64,000 nucleotides of DNA from Bacteroidota bacterium (GTDB lineage: Bacteria; Bacteroidota; Bacteroidia; Chitinophagales; Chitinophagaceae): positions 1 to 64,000 of the forward strand of contig JAGWUV010000003.1 of NCBI GenBank assembly GCA_028875875.1. The letters run 5' to 3'. A program made the translations under genes and the position numbers. Positions 41,747-47,967 of this stretch are shown piece after piece; the stretch's first letter is position 1; the number at the start of each line of letters is the position of its first letter. Under the pieces are notes generated by a model that saw only the letters and a program-made list of their open reading frames with translations, did not search any database and was not told the origin of the DNA.

Positions 41747-42832
41747 TTAAGAGTTCATCACTTTATTCTGATGGTTGATACTTTCCATATGTACGGCATC
41801 AAAATATTTGGTGATGAATTCCTTGCTAAGTCCAAGTTTTTCGCCTTTTGCAAAAGCTCTTTCGAGGATTGAGTTCCAGCGATTGGTTTGTAAGATAGTG
41901 ATATTGTTATCCTTTTTATACTGACCAATTTTTTCAGCTACTTTCATACGCTGACCAAGAATTTGCATCAACTCATCATCCAAATGATTGATTTGTTGGC
42001 GTAATTTTTCTAAAGCTGCATGATATTCTTCACTGGCTACATCTTCTGTTCTCCAGCGAATACTACCGATCATTTCGCCCAATCTCTCAGGAGTTACTTG
42101 TTGCTTAGCATCACTCCAGGCTTTATCGGGATCAATATGACTTTCAATGATCAATCCGTCGAAATCAAGATCAATTGCTTTTTGAGCCACATCCATCAAC
42201 ATATGCCTGTTACCGCAGATATGTGAAGGATCGTTAATGATCATCATACCAGGATTTCTTCTCTTCATTTCAATGGCCAGGTGCCACATAGGTGCATTAC
42301 GGTATTCTGTGTTACCATAAGAACTGAATCCACGATGAATAAGACCAATATTTTTAATACCCGCTTTTGCTACACGCTCAACAGCACCGATCCACAATTC
42401 TAAATCCGGGTTGATAGGGTTTTTAATTAAAACGGGCACATCCGCACCACGTAATGCATCGGCAACTTCTTGTACGCTGAAAGGGTTTACAGTAGTACGA
42501 GCTCCAATCCATAAAATATCAATACCAAAGTGCAAAGCATCTTCCACTTGTTTGGCTGTTGCCACTTCAATAGCAACAGGTAATCCTGTAAGTTCTTTTG
42601 CCTTCTGCATCCAGGGTAAGCCCTTTGTTCCAACACCTTCAAAAGAACCCGGACGAGTACGGGGTTTCCAAATACCTGCACGTAATACATCTACTTTTCC
42701 GGTTGCAGCCAAACGGGTTGCGGTTTCCAAAACTTGTTCTTCAGTTTCTGCGCTGCAAGGACCGCTAATAATTAAGGGACGTTTATTCCATACGTCGCTA
42801 ATCGTTTTAGAGTGTTCTAATGTTTGCTCCAT
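41747..42832 (-). CDS. Bifunctional DAHP synthase / chorismate mutase
   Basis: 361 residues. Residues 1-260 are a type I-beta DAHP synthase: IISGPCSAETEEQ (metal Cys), KPRTRPGSFEGVG, IKNPINPD, GLIHRGFSSYG, and NDPSHICGNR (metal His). Residues 265-355 are an AroQ-type chorismate mutase: LRQQINHLDDELMQILGQRM, KKDNNITILQ and the end helix. The fusion joins the first pathway step to the entry of the Phe/Tyr branch, and the mutase domain often serves as the feedback sensor. It lies 31 bp after the helicase gene and upstream of aroB. Confidence 0.93.
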   Translation of the reverse strand: MEQTLEHSKTISDVWNKRPLIISGPCSAETEEQVLETATRLAATGKVDVLRAGIWKPRTRPGSFEGVGTKGLPWMQKAKELTGLPVAIEVATAKQVEDALHFGIDILWIGARTTVNPFSVQEVADALRGADVPVLIKNPINPDLELWIGAVERVAKAGIKNIGLIHRGFSSYGNTEYRNAPMWHLAIEMKRRNPGMMIINDPSHICGNRHMLMDVAQKAIDLDFDGLIIESHIDPDKAWSDAKQQVTPERLGEMIGSIRWRTEDVASEEYHAALEKLRQQINHLDDELMQILGQRMKVAEKIGQYKKDNNITILQTNRWNSILERAFAKGEKLGLSKEFITKYFDAVHMESINHQNKVMNS

Positions 42833-42863: not shown

Positions 42864-44528
42864 TTATCTGCTGTTGGCATCATTCATACGAATTCTTCTG
42901 CCACGATAATTTTTACCATCAATTGCACTGATCATTTGCTTGGCTGCACGTTTATCAATTTCAATCCAACTGTTCATCTCTTTCATATCAATCCTTCCCA
43001 GCACATCTTTTTTCAGATCGCTCATATCTAAAATAAACTGCAGGAAACTGGCTTTATAAAAACCATCTTTTGTTCCCAGGTTCACAAACAATCTTGCATA
43101 TTCACTATTACCATTTCTTACAGCTTTATTATCTCTTCCACGTGTACGGCCCTGGTCTCTTCCATCTCCGGCAAACTCTCTCCTGTTATCCCTTTTTTGT
43201 TCACGGATGTTAAGGTCTTCAGCATTTTCATAATACTTCAAAAATCTGTCGAATTCCAGTGCTGCCATACGTTGCAGAATTTCATCCTTACTTACATCTG
43301 CAAACTTTTCCTGCAACATGGGTAAGTAAGTTTCATAATCACCATGACTAATATCTAATTGCAATAACTTATCCATAAAGTGGTAGAACTGTTTACGGCA
43401 AACATCTTTTCCACTTGGTATTTCTAAACGATGGAACTGGCTTTGCACCAATCTTTCAATCGTTTTCAGTTTATACAATTCACGGCTATGTACAATGCTC
43501 ATGCAAACACCTGTACTACCGGCTCTTCCTGTACGGCCACTTCTGTGGGTGTACACTTCTGTATCATCGGGCAATTCATAGTTAATCACGTGTGTAATTT
43601 CTTTCACATCAATACCGCGAGCTGCCACATCGGTTGCAATCAGCAACTGTAATGCTTTATCACGGAAAGCGTTCATTACTTTATCACGTTGTTGCTGTGT
43701 TAAATCGCCGTGCAATGCATCAATATCGTAGCCTTCTCTGGTTAACTTCTCGGCAATCTCCTGTGCATCAGCTTTGGTACGTGTAAAGATGATACCGTAC
43801 ATCCCCGGGTTAAAATCGATTAACCGCTTTAATGCTTCGTAACGTTGCTGGGCTTGTGTTATATAGTATTGATGATCTATATTTTTATTCGCAGTATTCA
43901 CTTTACCAACCGTTACCTCAAAAGGTTCTTTCATGTAACGTTTGCTCACCTTACGAATTTCAGGGGGCATAGTAGCACTGAATAACCAGGTTGCTTCACG
44001 CTGTGGGGTATTTTGCAAAATAAACTCTATGTCTTCCTGGAAACCCATGTTCAGCATTTCATCCGCCTCGTCCAGTACCACGTATTTTATTTGTTCAAGG
44101 TTGATCGCTTTTCTTTCAATCAGGTCAATCAATCTTCCCGGAGTAGCTACAACAATTTGAACACCTCTTTTCAAATCACGAATTTGCATTCCAATAGACG
44201 ACCCACCATACACAGCCAGCACATGCATACCCGGAATAAATTTCTTAAAATGCTCTATTTCATTAACAATCTGCAAACACAATTCACGGGTAGGACAAAC
44301 TACCAATGCCTGCGGATATCTTTGCTTTTCCTCAATTAAATCTAACAGCGGCAATCCAAATGCTGCTGTTTTACCTGTACCGGTTTGCGCCAAACCGATC
44401 AAGTCTTTAGTGCCGCTTAACAAAACAGGGATCGCTTTTTCTTGAATAGTCGTTGGGTTCACAAACCCCAACGCATCGGTTGCCTGAACCAATCTAGCAT
44501 CTAATCCCAACTCACTGAATGTAATCAT
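42864..44528 (-). CDS. DEAD-box RNA helicase with DbpA-like C-terminal domain
   Basis: 554 residues. It has the Q motif (TTIQEKAIP), AQTGTGKT, PTRELC, DEAD in VLDEADEMLNMGF, SAT, and ARGIDV plus HRSGRTGRAG. Residues 460-554 hold an RG-rich stretch and then a DbpA-type RNA-binding domain (RLFVNLGTKDGFYKASFLQF, VLGRIDMKEMNSWIEID). Similar proteins (CsdA/DeaD, DbpA) remodel rRNA and structured mRNA. It sits among aromatic amino acid genes, but a TACCTTTG box at 44548-44555 suggests its own promoter. Confidence 0.92.
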   Translation of the reverse strand: MITFSELGLDARLVQATDALGFVNPTTIQEKAIPVLLSGTKDLIGLAQTGTGKTAAFGLPLLDLIEEKQRYPQALVVCPTRELCLQIVNEIEHFKKFIPGMHVLAVYGGSSIGMQIRDLKRGVQIVVATPGRLIDLIERKAINLEQIKYVVLDEADEMLNMGFQEDIEFILQNTPQREATWLFSATMPPEIRKVSKRYMKEPFEVTVGKVNTANKNIDHQYYITQAQQRYEALKRLIDFNPGMYGIIFTRTKADAQEIAEKLTREGYDIDALHGDLTQQQRDKVMNAFRDKALQLLIATDVAARGIDVKEITHVINYELPDDTEVYTHRSGRTGRAGSTGVCMSIVHSRELYKLKTIERLVQSQFHRLEIPSGKDVCRKQFYHFMDKLLQLDISHGDYETYLPMLQEKFADVSKDEILQRMAALEFDRFLKYYENAEDLNIREQKRDNRREFAGDGRDQGRTRGRDNKAVRNGNSEYARLFVNLGTKDGFYKASFLQFILDMSDLKKDVLGRIDMKEMNSWIEIDKRAAKQMISAIDGKNYRGRRIRMNDANSR

Positions 44529-44705: not shown

Positions 44706-45554
44706 CTATTTAATGATCCTTTTAATCTTATTCGCATTCTCCATCAATTCATACAAATACTCCACATTCTCTTTTTCCAGGCATGCTTTGAACTTACGCA
44801 ATTGAGCAATATGCTCGTTTAAAACGTCAAGTACATTTTCCCTGTTTTGCATAAAAATAGGCGCCCACATAGACGGATTACTTTTGGCCAAACGAACCGT
44901 ACTTTCAAAACCTCCACCGGCTAGTTCAAAAATGGCATCTTCTTCTTTTTCTTTTTCCAAAACTGTATTGGCCAAAGCAAATGAAGTAATATGCGAAATA
45001 TGACTCACATAAGCAGCATGCATATCATGTGCATCGGCATCCATGTACACCAAATGCATTCCTAACTCTTTATAAATTTTCTCGATTATTTCAACAGCTT
45101 CCTTATCGCTCTTTTCTTTTTCACAAATCACACAAGCCCTTCCGCTGAAAGCATTGTGTACTGCGGCTTCGGGGCCGCTGTACTCTGTACCCCACATAGG
45201 ATGCGTTGCTACAAAACATTGCCTCATCGGGTGATCTTTTAACGCATCGCACAAAGCATATTTTGTTGACCCTGCATCAGCTACTATTTGTTTATCGGTA
45301 ACAAGATCCATGATCTGTTTCATCACAGGAATCGTAGCGTCTACCGGGATAGCCACATAAATAAAATCGCTTTTTTTAACTGCCTCTTCCAAAGACAATG
45401 CCTCATCAATCAATCCGAGTTCTAATGCCTTTTGTTCACTGACTTTCGTTCTGCTCACACCTATCACATGCTTGGCAAAACCTTTTTCTTTCAATGCCAA
45501 TGAAAAAGACCCGCTGATCAAACCCACTCCAACAATCGTAACATTATTAAACAT
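44706..45554 (-). CDS. tyrA: Prephenate dehydrogenase
   Basis: 282 residues. It oxidises and decarboxylates prephenate to 4-hydroxyphenylpyruvate for tyrosine. The N-terminal Rossmann fold starts VGVGLISGSFSLALKEKG; VADAGSTKYAL and ATHPMWGTEYSGPEAA carry the catalytic His region, and the C-terminal half is the helical dimerisation domain. No ACT domain follows, unlike many longer TyrA. It lies 19 bp after the aminotransferase, in the pheA operon. Confidence 0.9.
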   Translation of the reverse strand: MFNNVTIVGVGLISGSFSLALKEKGFAKHVIGVSRTKVSEQKALELGLIDEALSLEEAVKKSDFIYVAIPVDATIPVMKQIMDLVTDKQIVADAGSTKYALCDALKDHPMRQCFVATHPMWGTEYSGPEAAVHNAFSGRACVICEKEKSDKEAVEIIEKIYKELGMHLVYMDADAHDMHAAYVSHISHITSFALANTVLEKEKEEDAIFELAGGGFESTVRLAKSNPSMWAPIFMQNRENVLDVLNEHIAQLRKFKACLEKENVEYLYELMENANKIKRIIK

Positions 45555-45573: not shown

Positions 45574-46725
45574 TTATGAATTCTTAATTCTATTGATGGC
45601 CTCTTCAAATCTTTCAATACTTCCACATAAACTCACTCTTATATATTCTTCACCCGCAGTTCCAAAAATGCCACCGGGAGTGATAAATACATTTGCGTTA
45701 TACAACACTTTATCACTTAGTTCATAACCATCCTTGTACTGAGCCGGAATCTTGGCCCACACAAACATGCCCACCTGGTTTTTAGCATATTCACATTGTA
45801 ACAAATCCAGCAACTCGAATACCTTTTCCCTTCTTTCTCTGTACACTTTGTTTACGCCGTCGTACCAACTCTTATCCAGGCTCAAAGCCTTTGCAGCAGC
45901 GAGTTGCAGCGGTAAAAACATACCGCTGTCCATATTGCTTTTAAACTTCAGCACATCATCTATATTCTGCTTCGAACCGCAGAGCATACCTACTCTCCAT
46001 CCGGCCATGTTTTGAGATTTGCTCAACGAGTTCAATTCTAATACTACGTCTTTAGCACCCGCAACGGATAATAAACTTTGCGGGTTATCATTCAGGATAA
46101 AACTGTACGGATTATCATGAACAATTAAAATGCCATTCGCTTTCGCAAACGCAACCAGTTGTTCAAAAAATTCCTGTTCAGGTAATTGTCCTGTTGGCAT
46201 GTGCGGATAATTCACGAACATCAGTTTCACCTTCGAAAGATCTTTTTCAGCCAGTGCTTTGAGATCCGGATGATAATTCAACGACTCTTTCAATTCATAA
46301 TCTACGCAAATACCACCGGACAGCTTCACTGCACTTCTGTAAGTTGGATATCCGGGATTAGGCACCAACACTTCATCTCCTTCATTTAAAAAGGTCATAC
46401 AGATATGTATGATGCCTTCTTTACTTCCAATCAATGGCAATATTTCTGTATCAGGATTCAATTCAACGCCATACCACTTGCTGTACCAGTCGCTCATCGC
46501 TTTTCTCAAAACCGGAGAACCTTTATAAGACTGATACGCATGTACATTAGGCTTAGCACTTTCTTCCTGCAATACCTTAATCACATCAGGATGCGGCGGC
46601 AAATCTGGACTACCGATCCCGAGATTTATAATATTTTTCCCCTGTTTATTTAATTCGTCTATCTCTCTAAGTTTCTGCGAAAAATAATATTCACCAATCC
46701 CGTCTAAACGTTTAGCCAGTTGCAT
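45574..46725 (-). CDS. Class I/II aminotransferase of the Phe/Tyr operon
   Basis: 383 residues, a fold type I PLP enzyme: NLGIGSPDLPPHPDV, SKEGIIHICMTFLNEGDEV, VPNPGYPTYRSAV, the PLP lysine in NSLSKSQNMAGWRVG, and RVSLCGSIERFEEAI with the carboxylate-binding Arg. Placed between pheA (2 bp) and tyrA (19 bp), it most likely aminates phenylpyruvate and 4-hydroxyphenylpyruvate, the last step of both branches; aspartate prephenate aminotransferase activity is an alternative. Function by context is inference. Confidence 0.88.
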   Translation of the reverse strand: MQLAKRLDGIGEYYFSQKLREIDELNKQGKNIINLGIGSPDLPPHPDVIKVLQEESAKPNVHAYQSYKGSPVLRKAMSDWYSKWYGVELNPDTEILPLIGSKEGIIHICMTFLNEGDEVLVPNPGYPTYRSAVKLSGGICVDYELKESLNYHPDLKALAEKDLSKVKLMFVNYPHMPTGQLPEQEFFEQLVAFAKANGILIVHDNPYSFILNDNPQSLLSVAGAKDVVLELNSLSKSQNMAGWRVGMLCGSKQNIDDVLKFKSNMDSGMFLPLQLAAAKALSLDKSWYDGVNKVYRERREKVFELLDLLQCEYAKNQVGMFVWAKIPAQYKDGYELSDKVLYNANVFITPGGIFGTAGEEYIRVSLCGSIERFEEAINRIKNS

Positions 46726-46727
46726 AT

Positions 46728-47555
46728 TTATTGTTTTCCGTTTTTATAAATTCCGTAGGTAGTGATGTTTGCAGTAAGCGGCTTAATAGTGTTGAGAACC
46801 TTATCAAACTGCTTAATATTATCAAACTCCATATCAGCATGAAAGCTGTATTTAAAGTTGGTACCTGCAATAGGCATGCTTTGCAGCTTACTTAAATTAA
46901 TACCGCCGTCTGCAATCTTAGAAAGCACTTTAGCCAAACTGCCTTTCGTATGATCGGTTTCAAAATTTACAGAAGCTTTGTTAGCATCTTCAATTACAGT
47001 ATCTGTTTCCTTTCTTTCCAGTATCCAAAAACGGGTATAATTACTTTTTTGCGTATGAATATTAGCGGCGATGATTTCCAGTTCAAAAAGATCCGCCGCC
47101 AAAGAGCTGGCGATAGCCGCAATATGATGGCTCTTCTTTTTATGAATATGCATGGCACTCAATGCGGTATCTTCTGTTTCTACCAGCTTCCATTCTTGCT
47201 TATCCAAATATTCCATGCACTGCTGAATAGCCATATGATGTGAGTGTACTTCCTTGATATCTTCCAACCTTACTCCGGGGTTAACCAATAAATGTTGTTT
47301 AATCGGCAGGTATACTTCACCAACTATTTTCAGATTACCTTTTTGCAGTAAAGTGTAGTTAGGCAAAATACTGCCGGCTATTGAATTTTCGATAGCCATA
47401 ACACCACCATTACTTTCTTTCTTGTTTGCAGCAATTTTTACTACCTCTCTGAAAGTAGCACAGGGAATTACTTCTACATCTTCACCAAAGAACTGCCTTG
47501 CAGCCACCTGGTGGAAGCTTCCCTCATAACCTTGTATTGATACTCGTTTCGGCAT
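46728..47555 (-). CDS. pheA: Prephenate dehydratase with ACT domain
   Basis: 275 residues. It turns prephenate into phenylpyruvate. SIQGYEGSFHQVAA at the start, GGVMAIENSIAGSILPNY, the catalytic Thr in NYTRFWIL, and from about 190 an ACT regulatory domain (KGSLAKVLSKIADGGINLSK). The usual Phe-binding ESRP of that domain reads QSMP here, so feedback inhibition may be altered. The ATG follows directly on the T-run of a terminator hairpin and the gene is led by a Phe/Tyr-rich leader ORF (47606-47695), so transcription is probably controlled by attenuation. Confidence 0.94.
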   Translation of the reverse strand: MPKRVSIQGYEGSFHQVAARQFFGEDVEVIPCATFREVVKIAANKKESNGGVMAIENSIAGSILPNYTLLQKGNLKIVGEVYLPIKQHLLVNPGVRLEDIKEVHSHHMAIQQCMEYLDKQEWKLVETEDTALSAMHIHKKKSHHIAAIASSLAADLFELEIIAANIHTQKSNYTRFWILERKETDTVIEDANKASVNFETDHTKGSLAKVLSKIADGGINLSKLQSMPIAGTNFKYSFHADMEFDNIKQFDKVLNTIKPLTANITTYGIYKNGKQ

Positions 47556-47565
47556 AAAATAAAAA

Positions 47566-47584
47566 TCCCGGCTTTAGGCCGGGA
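47566..47584 (-). terminator. Attenuator terminator (3:4 hairpin) before pheA
   Basis: On the minus strand TCCCGGC (47584-47578), loop CTAAA, GCCGGGA (47572-47566), then TTTTTATTTT running into the pheA ATG at 47555. It belongs to the leader, not to the end of any gene. Confidence 0.88.
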
Positions 47585-47648
47585 CTGTATGTTGATTGTT
47601 CTTAATTAAGCTTTTGCAAATACAACCCGGCTACTTTGATTAAAGTAG
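47575..47648 (-). promoter_or_regulatory. Alternative hairpins of the pheA attenuator
   Basis: On the minus strand, segment 1 CTACTTT (47648-47642) pairs with segment 2 AAAGTAG (47637-47631). Segment 2 also contains TAGCCGGG (47633-47626), which pairs with segment 3 CCCGGCCTA (47583-47575) over eight bases with one bulged C. Segment 3 is the 5' arm of the terminator. So 1:2 with 3:4 (off) and 2:3 (on) exclude each other, as in the enterobacterial trp and phe leaders. Segment 1 covers codons 17-18 of the leader ORF, at the end of its Phe/Tyr run. Confidence 0.8.
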
Positions 47649-47695
47649 AAGTAAAAGAAAAAATAAAAGAATGTATTTGCGAAAGATTTTTTCAT
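47606..47695 (-). CDS. Phe/Tyr-rich leader peptide of the pheA operon
   Basis: A 29-codon ORF not long enough for usual gene calling: ATG at 47695, TAA at 47608-47606. After MKKSFANT come ten consecutive aromatic codons, FFYFFFYFYF (codons 9-18), and then NQSSRVVFAKA; in all 9 Phe and 3 Tyr of 29. When charged tRNA-Phe or tRNA-Tyr is short, the ribosome would stall on this run and cover segment 1 of the leader RNA, allowing the antiterminator. When supply is good it runs to the stop and the terminator forms. The operon makes exactly these two amino acids. The initiator is 7 nt after the -7 box, so the leader mRNA has almost no 5' untranslated region. Confidence 0.85.
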   Translation of the reverse strand: MKKSFANTFFYFFFYFYFNQSSRVVFAKA

Positions 47696-47702
47696 TGCAG
47701 AA

Positions 47703-47733
47703 CAAATGTAAAAAGGATTTTTATTCAAACAAA
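47703..47733 (-). promoter_or_regulatory. Promoter of the pheA leader
   Basis: On the minus strand TTTG (47733-47730), 19 nt, TACATTTG (47710-47703): a full match to the Bacteroidota consensus, placed just before the leader ORF. Confidence 0.75.
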
Positions 47734-47841: not shown

Positions 47842-47874
47842 AAAAAAGCCCTTCCGTGGAAACGGAACGGCCTC
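47842..47874 (-). terminator. Terminator of the small lipoprotein gene
   Basis: On the minus strand GGCCGTTCCG, loop, CGGAAGGGC (one mismatch), then TTTTTTC, about 95 nt after the stop of the gene at 47968. It separates that gene from the pheA leader. Confidence 0.7.
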
Positions 47875-47967
47875 TAACGATTGCTTGCCATATGAAAAAG
47901 AGTTTTTACTATTTCCTGCCGCAAGCTGGCTTTACACTAACCAATCGCACAATAGTAATCTAATCAA

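Follow-up and report, generated by a model that had tools for sequence, protein, structure and literature searches.

Comparative evidence for a probable ribosome-mediated attenuator with a Phe/Tyr leader peptide before the pheA operon of Chitinophagaceae

Overview

The region immediately upstream of pheA in the window, i.e., the whole 64,000-nucleotide stretch of DNA analyzed here, may be read as a ribosome-mediated transcription attenuator that would sense charged Phe-tRNA and Tyr-tRNA, with a probability, judged from the sequences, of roughly 94%. This reading is strongly supported by comparison with relatives, and it upholds the preliminary description of the locus, which had proposed such an attenuator and which is now backed by a conserved leader ORF and terminator, by pairing matched within species, and by compensatory triplets of RNA segments.

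In the mechanism envisaged, RNA polymerase would start about 3 nt 5' of the leader AUG, and the ribosome would load on a nearly leaderless transcript. A shortage of Phe or Tyr would stall the ribosome at codons 9-18 and leave segment 2 free to pair with the emerging segment 3, which would allow pheA, the aminotransferase gene, and tyrA to be transcribed, with read-through perhaps extending to the DAHP synthase/chorismate mutase gene. If Phe and Tyr are plentiful, the ribosome would pass over segment 2, the 3:4 hairpin would form, and transcription would stop just before pheA, either through the timely passage of the ribosome over segment 2, or through its release and the kinetic trapping of the 1:2 pairing, or both.

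Organization of the locus

The features of the locus are listed in Table 1. Codons 9-18 of the leader ORF are an uninterrupted run of seven Phe and three Tyr codons. The preliminary description had pointed to a 29-codon ORF with ten aromatic codons in a row, a promoter upstream of it, and a terminator with a T-rich tract touching the pheA ATG, all of which were located in the minus-strand sequence (TTTG at -33 and TACATTTG at -7 for the promoter, the stem at 47586-47564 and TTTTTATTTT for the terminator), and pheA, the aminotransferase gene, and tyrA were identified by Pfam and NCBIfam. A sigma-70 promoter was considered and rejected, as 21 such sites were found against 23.6 expected, and the TAnnTTTG motif fits instead.

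Table 1. Coordinates of the leader, its regulatory segments, and the downstream genes in the window
Feature	Position	Strand	Basis
-33 element TTTG (predicted)	47730..47733	minus	sequence
19-nt gap between TTTG and the -7 box		minus	sequence
-7 box TACATTTG, perfect TAnnTTTG, end 7 nt 5' of leader ATG	47703..47710	minus	sequence
Transcription start (predicted), 5'UTR about 3 nt	47698	minus	box position -12 to -5
Leader peptide ORF, 29 codons, MKKSFANTFFYFFFYFYFNQSSRVVFAKA, ATG 47695, TAA 47606	47606..47695	minus	sequence and relatives
Regulatory codons 9-18: F F Y F F F Y F Y F	47642..47671	minus	
Segment 1 GCAAAUACA, codons 6-8, partner the 3' part of segment 2	47672..47680	minus	MFE fold, species-matched pairing
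Inner hairpin CUACUUU/AAAGUAG	47631..47648	minus	MFE fold; comparable hairpins in some relatives
Segment 2 AGCCGGGUUGUAUUUGC, within ORF, codons 22-27	47616..47632	minus	
Segment 3 AUACAGUCCCGGC, pairs with segment 2; also 5' arm of terminator	47578..47590	minus	
Intrinsic terminator stem-loop, segments 3:4	47564..47586	minus	sequence; strict search in relatives
T-tract TTTTTATTTT, up to pheA ATG (47555)	47556..47565	minus	sequence
pheA, prephenate dehydratase	46728..47555	minus	Pfam PDT, E 4.8e-57
Class I/II aminotransferase	45574..46725	minus	Pfam Aminotran_1_2
tyrA, prephenate dehydrogenase	44706..45554	minus	NCBIfam NF006307 above cut-off
DEAD-box RNA helicase gene	42864..44528	minus	between tyrA and DAHP synthase gene
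DAHP synthase fused to chorismate mutase	41747..42832	minus	Pfam DAHP_synth_1 and CM_2

From pheA onwards, the order of the genes is prephenate dehydratase, aminotransferase, prephenate dehydrogenase, DEAD-box helicase, DAHP synthase/chorismate mutase, and 3-dehydroquinate synthase. The DAHP synthase/chorismate mutase gene is possibly a later member of the operon, with the helicase gene intervening. In the relatives, the order pheA-aminotransferase-tyrA is found in 36 of the 42 Chitinophagaceae loci, some of them with inserts, and the rest are partly cut by locus ends. The helicase gene lies past tyrA in 19 of the 42 relatives' loci, and the DAHP synthase/chorismate mutase gene is the next identified gene past tyrA in seven of the 42 Chitinophagaceae loci; in other families, 18 of 19 loci have it 3' of pheA. 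By eye, TACCTTTG lies 5' of the helicase ATG in the window, which suggests that this gene has its own promoter.

Conservation of the leader ORF

The pheA relatives were gathered from public contigs, from 147 genomes of the family (103 matched and 44 without a pheA match), and from 247 genomes of the class (65 matched), with the family label (f1) taken to be Chitinophagaceae from the contigs that it has in common with named records. Upstream regions were read for 83 of the 103 matched family genomes and 56 of the 61 matched non-family genomes, and the remainder are mostly more divergent. A leader ORF was defined as one of 15-45 codons with at least six F/Y within ten codons, and it was found in 146 of the 171 upstream regions of the family and class (some genomes being counted twice, and L006, with 92 nt of upstream sequence, being excluded), against 5 of 855 dinucleotide shuffles and none of the 171 reverse complements. 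The preliminary description had proposed a search for a conserved short ORF of this kind before pheA in relatives, and held that its reading would fall if close relatives had neither leader ORF nor terminator; the ORF is present in 112 of the 116 regions from Chitinophagaceae and in 34 of the 55 from other families, and the terminator in 128 of 137 leaders. By the same test, none of 31 loci with located genes has such an ORF upstream of pheS.

The 25 regions below the ORF threshold include 21 from outside Chitinophagaceae. The four misses within the family are L184, which has a GTG start, L028 and L029, which are Phe-only and score 5, and L027, where no leader ORF is seen upstream of pheA. In L184, the GTG lies 4 nt past TACATTTG, so that this leader would be strictly leaderless. 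In L027, pheA adjoins what by eye appear to be ATP synthase genes. No leader was found before pheA in L044-L048 (Bacillota, Anaerolineae), which were excluded from later counts.

The later analyses use 137 leaders, 104 of them in Chitinophagaceae, obtained with a search span of 400 nt instead of 350 nt and after 11 duplicates were dropped. Among the 1296 codons of their aromatic runs, 676 encode Phe and 462 Tyr, and none is TTA or TTG, as expected from selection on the amino acid rather than on U-richness; these residue counts are biased, given that the leaders and runs were chosen for their F/Y content.

Both residues are found in all 137 leaders counted, with Tyr making up 37% of Phe plus Tyr in Chitinophagaceae and 44% in other families. 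The constancy of this mix in the sequences makes the joint sensing of Phe and Tyr plausible. The preliminary description had suggested joint sensing from the window's own codons, and this idea gains from the count of 137 out of 137; on the other hand, two Phe-only leaders exist outside that count, both weaker, namely L028 (MNKKSKTFRFRFFNCFLFKKK) and L029 (MNKQNKTFRFSFLNCFFFKKE).

For these two, the explanation that pheA has lost tyrA, with the Tyr codons tracking tyrA, was rejected, as the downstream genes are tandem paralogues. In G134, the contig which carries the aminotransferase gene and tyrA opens with another of these paralogues, and no F/Y-rich ORF was found before its aminotransferase gene. 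The cluster of L028 and L029 is thus probably merely stretched by inserts and cut at the contig end. Related inserts between pheA and the aminotransferase gene are found in L030, L031, L034, L035, and L041, in which the Tyr codons are kept. The tandem paralogous ORFs downstream of L028 and L029 are 310-420 aa long, and two of the three tested have no Pfam match; one has a sub-threshold match to a transposase.

RNA fold and pairing in the window

Folding of the RNA from 47733 to 47556 on the minus strand, a check put forward in the preliminary description, gave -38 kcal/mol for these 178 nt (z -4.26), and none of 200 shuffles was as stable. In the MFE fold, GCAAAUACA (codons 6-8) pairs with UGUAUUUGC (codons 24-27), enclosing the smaller CUACUUU/AAAGUAG hairpin, and by inspection the antiterminator consists of GCCGGG-U-UGUAU with AUACA-GU-CCCGGC, which amounts to about 14 pairs in the ribosome-position model below. 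The two pairings of the preliminary description, CTACTTT/AAAGTAG and TAGCCGGG/CCCGGCCTA, do exist, but they make an incomplete set: the first had been given as an early hairpin, and segment 1 is chiefly GCAAAUACA, paired with UGUAUUUGC around it; the second had been given as an antiterminator option, and by inspection the helix extends beyond it to the longer pairing stated above.

Conservation of the terminator and of the pairing switch

In a strict search for a hairpin with a T-tract, 128 of the 137 leaders scored positive, against 2 of 685 shuffles, and the nine misses have, by eye, terminator-like hairpins with stems that are interrupted or GC-poor. Chance origin can be rejected given these counts and those of the ORF (146/171 against 5/855).

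The same hairpin might instead act mainly on the translation of pheA, by blocking ribosomes before the start codon, with termination being secondary. In the window, it ends 8 nt 5' of the pheA ATG, and it is similarly near in other close relatives, as this alternative would have it; across 102 leaders of the family, however, the hairpin ends 7-189 nt before the aligned pheA start (an upper bound, as the aligned start may be intragenic), and the stem and T-tract are still kept, which makes a mainly translational control improbable.

The pairing of the segments was assessed by comparing the duplex energies within species with those after swaps between species, over 5000 permutations, in which kinship among the sequences can inflate the significance. 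Among 100 distinct Chitinophagaceae sequences, none of the 5000 permutations was as good as the real pairing for 2:3 (z -13.7), 1:2 (z -9.0), or 3:4 (z -20.9); for the 1:3 control, a pairing that the attenuator model does not need, 4087 of 5000 reached the real mean. The trp/phe geometry of 1:2, 2:3, and 3:4 pairings recognized in the preliminary description is thus species-matched in each of its parts. The sequences were sorted into groups A, B, and C by regular expressions, and within the two main groups (34 and 54 sequences) the full 2:3 and 3:4 pairings each remain at 0/5000, with 1:2 nearly as strong (1 and 4 of 5000 permutations). For the portion of 2:3 beyond the terminator, there is support in group B (1/5000) but not in group A alone, where 779 of 5000 permutations reach it.

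Compensatory changes in segments 2, 3, and 4, which had been proposed as a further check, were also found. The core of these segments occurs as 53 distinct triplets, such as AGCCAGG/CCTGGCT/AGCCGGG and GACCGGG/CCCGGTC/GGCCGGG. At 31 positions, distributed over 27 of 101 sequences, a Watson-Crick pair is kept in 2:3 and not in 3:4; the reverse holds for 19 positions, found in 15 sequences.

The small ORF might also encode a functional peptide, with the hairpins being its ordinary terminator, and both the aromatic run and the C-terminus of the peptide are indeed conserved. In L068, however, the stop codon precedes segment 2, yet CCGGGTTGTATTGC persists as untranslated RNA past this early stop, and L010 has Gln in place of the Arg in SSRVVF of the window, with segment 3 altered to match. 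These two patterns indicate that the leader C-terminus is largely an RNA constraint. The C-terminus also shifts together with segment 3 between a VVFA type and an MLLL type, which leaves a functional peptide very unlikely. A riboswitch, a T-box, or a protein-bound leader would likewise have a structured RNA at the 5' end of an amino-acid operon, but it is just as unlikely, as no Rfam family reaches the gathering score at the pheA site, the available text of PMC2494555 gives 0 T-boxes in 7 Bacteroidetes/Chlorobi genomes, and what is conserved is a series of cognate codons read in a single frame.

Modelled ribosome position and the choice between structures

The attenuator reading was also followed in a model in which the RNA is truncated after segment 3 and the footprint of the ribosome is blocked at each codon. 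In the window, the antiterminator of about 14 pairs is formed for ribosome positions through codon 18, falls to 12.3 pairs at codon 19, and has less than 1 pair at codons 20-28 when only the footprint is blocked; when all the RNA behind the ribosome is blocked, 8.2 pairs are left at codon 20, 5.8 at codon 21, and 1.2 at codon 22. Of the 102 Chitinophagaceae leaders modelled, 96 have more than half of the antiterminator formed when the ribosome is at the last aromatic codon; two codons further on, the number drops to 20, and four codons on, to 2. The first codon below half lies 1-4 codons past the run in 95 of the 102, and at or before the end of the run in the other seven. With the front of the footprint set at +8, +11, and +14 nt, the commonest point of loss is 3, 2, and 1 codons past the run, so that each additional 3 nt of footprint assumed moves the modelled boundary by one codon; the same modes were obtained for 26 leaders of other families. 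In this model, the regulatory codons thus end about where stalling would stop helping.

When the truncated RNA is modelled naked and at equilibrium, 2:3 beats 1:2 (14.3 against 0 pairs in the window), and more than half of 2:3 is formed in 94 of 102 relatives, which implies that an untranslated RNA would not attenuate unless 1:2 were kinetically trapped. With the ribosome at the stop codon and the RNA behind it free to pair, the mean fraction of 2:3 formed is 0.33, and more than half is formed in 26 of 102 leaders. Given that 2:3 is favoured in the naked RNA and only partly blocked by a ribosome at the stop codon, termination in a well-fed cell would rely on passage, on trapping, or on both.

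Predicted transcription start and probable near-leaderless leaders

According to the available text of PMC9723704, the sigma-A box TAnnTTTG occupies positions -12 to -5, so that where a box ends d nt 5' of an ATG, the expected length of the 5'UTR is d minus 4. Among the 104 Chitinophagaceae leaders, 79 have a perfect box whose end lies 4-9 nt 5' of the leader ATG, with a mode of 7, and 89 have one there if a single mismatch is allowed; in 65 of the 79 with a perfect box, TTG is present at the matching -33 distance. As controls, a box 4-9 nt before the ATG was found in 3 of 53 long ORFs of the window (8 of 53 with one mismatch) and, as a perfect match, in 11 of 2080 shuffles. Among the 33 leaders of other families, the perfect box is at 4-9 nt in one, 10-52 nt upstream in 15, and absent within 60 nt in 17, and the A content at -12 to -1 is 49%, against 25% in Chitinophagaceae. 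The Chitinophagaceae pheA leaders are, on this sequence evidence, probably nearly leaderless, with a predicted 5'UTR of 0-5 nt.

Leader peptides were also counted before other operons of Chitinophagaceae, and found at 26 of 30 his loci, 28 of 30 trp loci, and 17 of 29 ilvD loci. The his leaders have a perfect box at 4-10 nt in 19 of 26 (20 of 26 with one mismatch), and the trp leaders, a weaker case than his, have a perfect box in 5 of 28 and one with a single mismatch in 19 of 28; none of the 17 ilv leaders of the family has a box at that position, even with one mismatch. We lean slightly towards the view that the family holds a set of attenuators (Phe/Tyr, His, and Trp) on near-leaderless leaders, where polymerase would begin at the leader AUG and a ribosome would load on the 5' end of the nascent RNA with neither a Shine-Dalgarno sequence nor an A-rich start region, in which the Phe/Tyr mix would be a gate that opens pheA-tyrA when either one is short, and in which the leaderless start would have been selected, with ilv keeping an ordinary 5'UTR.

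Other elements in the genome and family

Further leader peptides were seen in the window genome at the loci L207, L266, L235/L340, and L338. They include MKNRTVHTHHHHYLP before hisG, MNKNFQNSSWWWHTNLNRGL before trpE (L266), MLLNRMNNTINAISALVVLVVVIIIPALHGGECCM before ilvD and before an ORF that by eye resembles an aminotransferase gene, and MKKQQNIFSFIKSTSTLLIVDGTINTTTTTL before thrA.

An sRNA-like element was also noticed at 47842-47906 on the minus strand of the window, consisting of a near-invariant block, ATGGCAAGCAATCGTTAGAGGC, followed by a hairpin of varied stem and a T-tract. Matches were found in 100 of the 144 genomes of the family, often as multiple or tandem copies, and in several distant relatives the identity is as high as 100% along some 60 nt. 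The element has no Rfam match. The block can be read as a five-codon ORF (M A S N R stop), which is broken in a few copies, and in the window the element lies past a gene for a protein with Thr/Lys/Asp repeats at its C-terminal end.

Implications

Peptide-leader attenuation appears from these results to be common in a phylum that, according to PMC9723704, initiates translation without reliance on Shine-Dalgarno sequences, and it would need close coupling of transcription and translation there. In one family, this attenuation probably runs on leaderless translation. The leader may therefore offer a compact natural reporter for the timing of ribosome engagement on nascent Bacteroidota mRNA, as well as for leaderless initiation in Bacteroidota and for the sensing of two amino acids by one leader. 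For genome annotation, it represents an RNA family that no Rfam model reaches at threshold.

Comparison with known systems

Ribosome-mediated attenuation is a textbook mechanism, and the pheA leader of E. coli carries only Phe codons. A work by Lopatovskaya (2010) is said to treat attenuation across bacteria and may already predict cases in Bacteroidetes. A Phe/Tyr leader before pheA in Chitinophagaceae is not reported among the literature matches listed, which were titles and the starts of abstracts.

The remark in the preliminary description that this regulation is little described in Bacteroidota is fair, with the reservation that hints precede it in the available text of PMC9723704, PMC7366714, and PMC2864571. 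The first of these describes structured elements in the 5' regions of pheA and hisG in Flavobacteriaceae, including Flavobacterium psychrophilum, and speaks of "strong clues" for leader-peptide attenuation of amino-acid operons. The second reports leader-peptide-like sORFs in B. thetaiotaomicron, and Table 1 of the third lists Bacteroid-trp (RF01692) as a cis-regulatory element of Bacteroidetes. RF01692 does not match the pheA site, and the trpE locus of the window genome (L266) gives no match to it that reaches the gathering score. The Rfam model Phe_leader (RF01859) scores 23.7 bits at the locus, against a cut-off of 55, with the whole model spanned, and is among the best sub-threshold matches. 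As for short 5' ends, leaderless mRNAs are put at 5.5% in F. psychrophilum (PMC9723704), and 5'UTRs of less than 10 nt at about 3.7% in B. thetaiotaomicron (PMC7366714).

Outside the phylum, the available text of PMC1262725 reports that no conserved RNA element was seen upstream of Phe or Tyr operons in Actinobacteria. In C. glutamicum, itself one of the Actinobacteria, the ilvBNC attenuator has its transcript start one nucleotide from the leader start codon (PMC11857589), which is a precedent for the transcription of an attenuator from its leader codon; that system serves branched-chain amino acids, whereas the leader described here has a Bacteroidota-type TAnnTTTG box and a predicted start site. 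The pheA 5' element of F. psychrophilum (PMC9723704) shares with the leader described here the phylum, the gene, and a structured 5' region, these being the features compared.

The pheA leader of E. coli likewise has a Phe-codon peptide and mutually exclusive antiterminator and terminator before pheA. Here, by contrast, the codons are a mix of Phe and Tyr, segment 2 lies within the ORF, tyrA belongs to the same cluster, and, unlike in E. coli, no Shine-Dalgarno sequence is seen at the window leader. As read from its sequence, the element would thus work like a classical attenuator and differ from it in its mixed Phe/Tyr codons, in the position of segment 2 in the ORF, and in its probable near-leaderless start.
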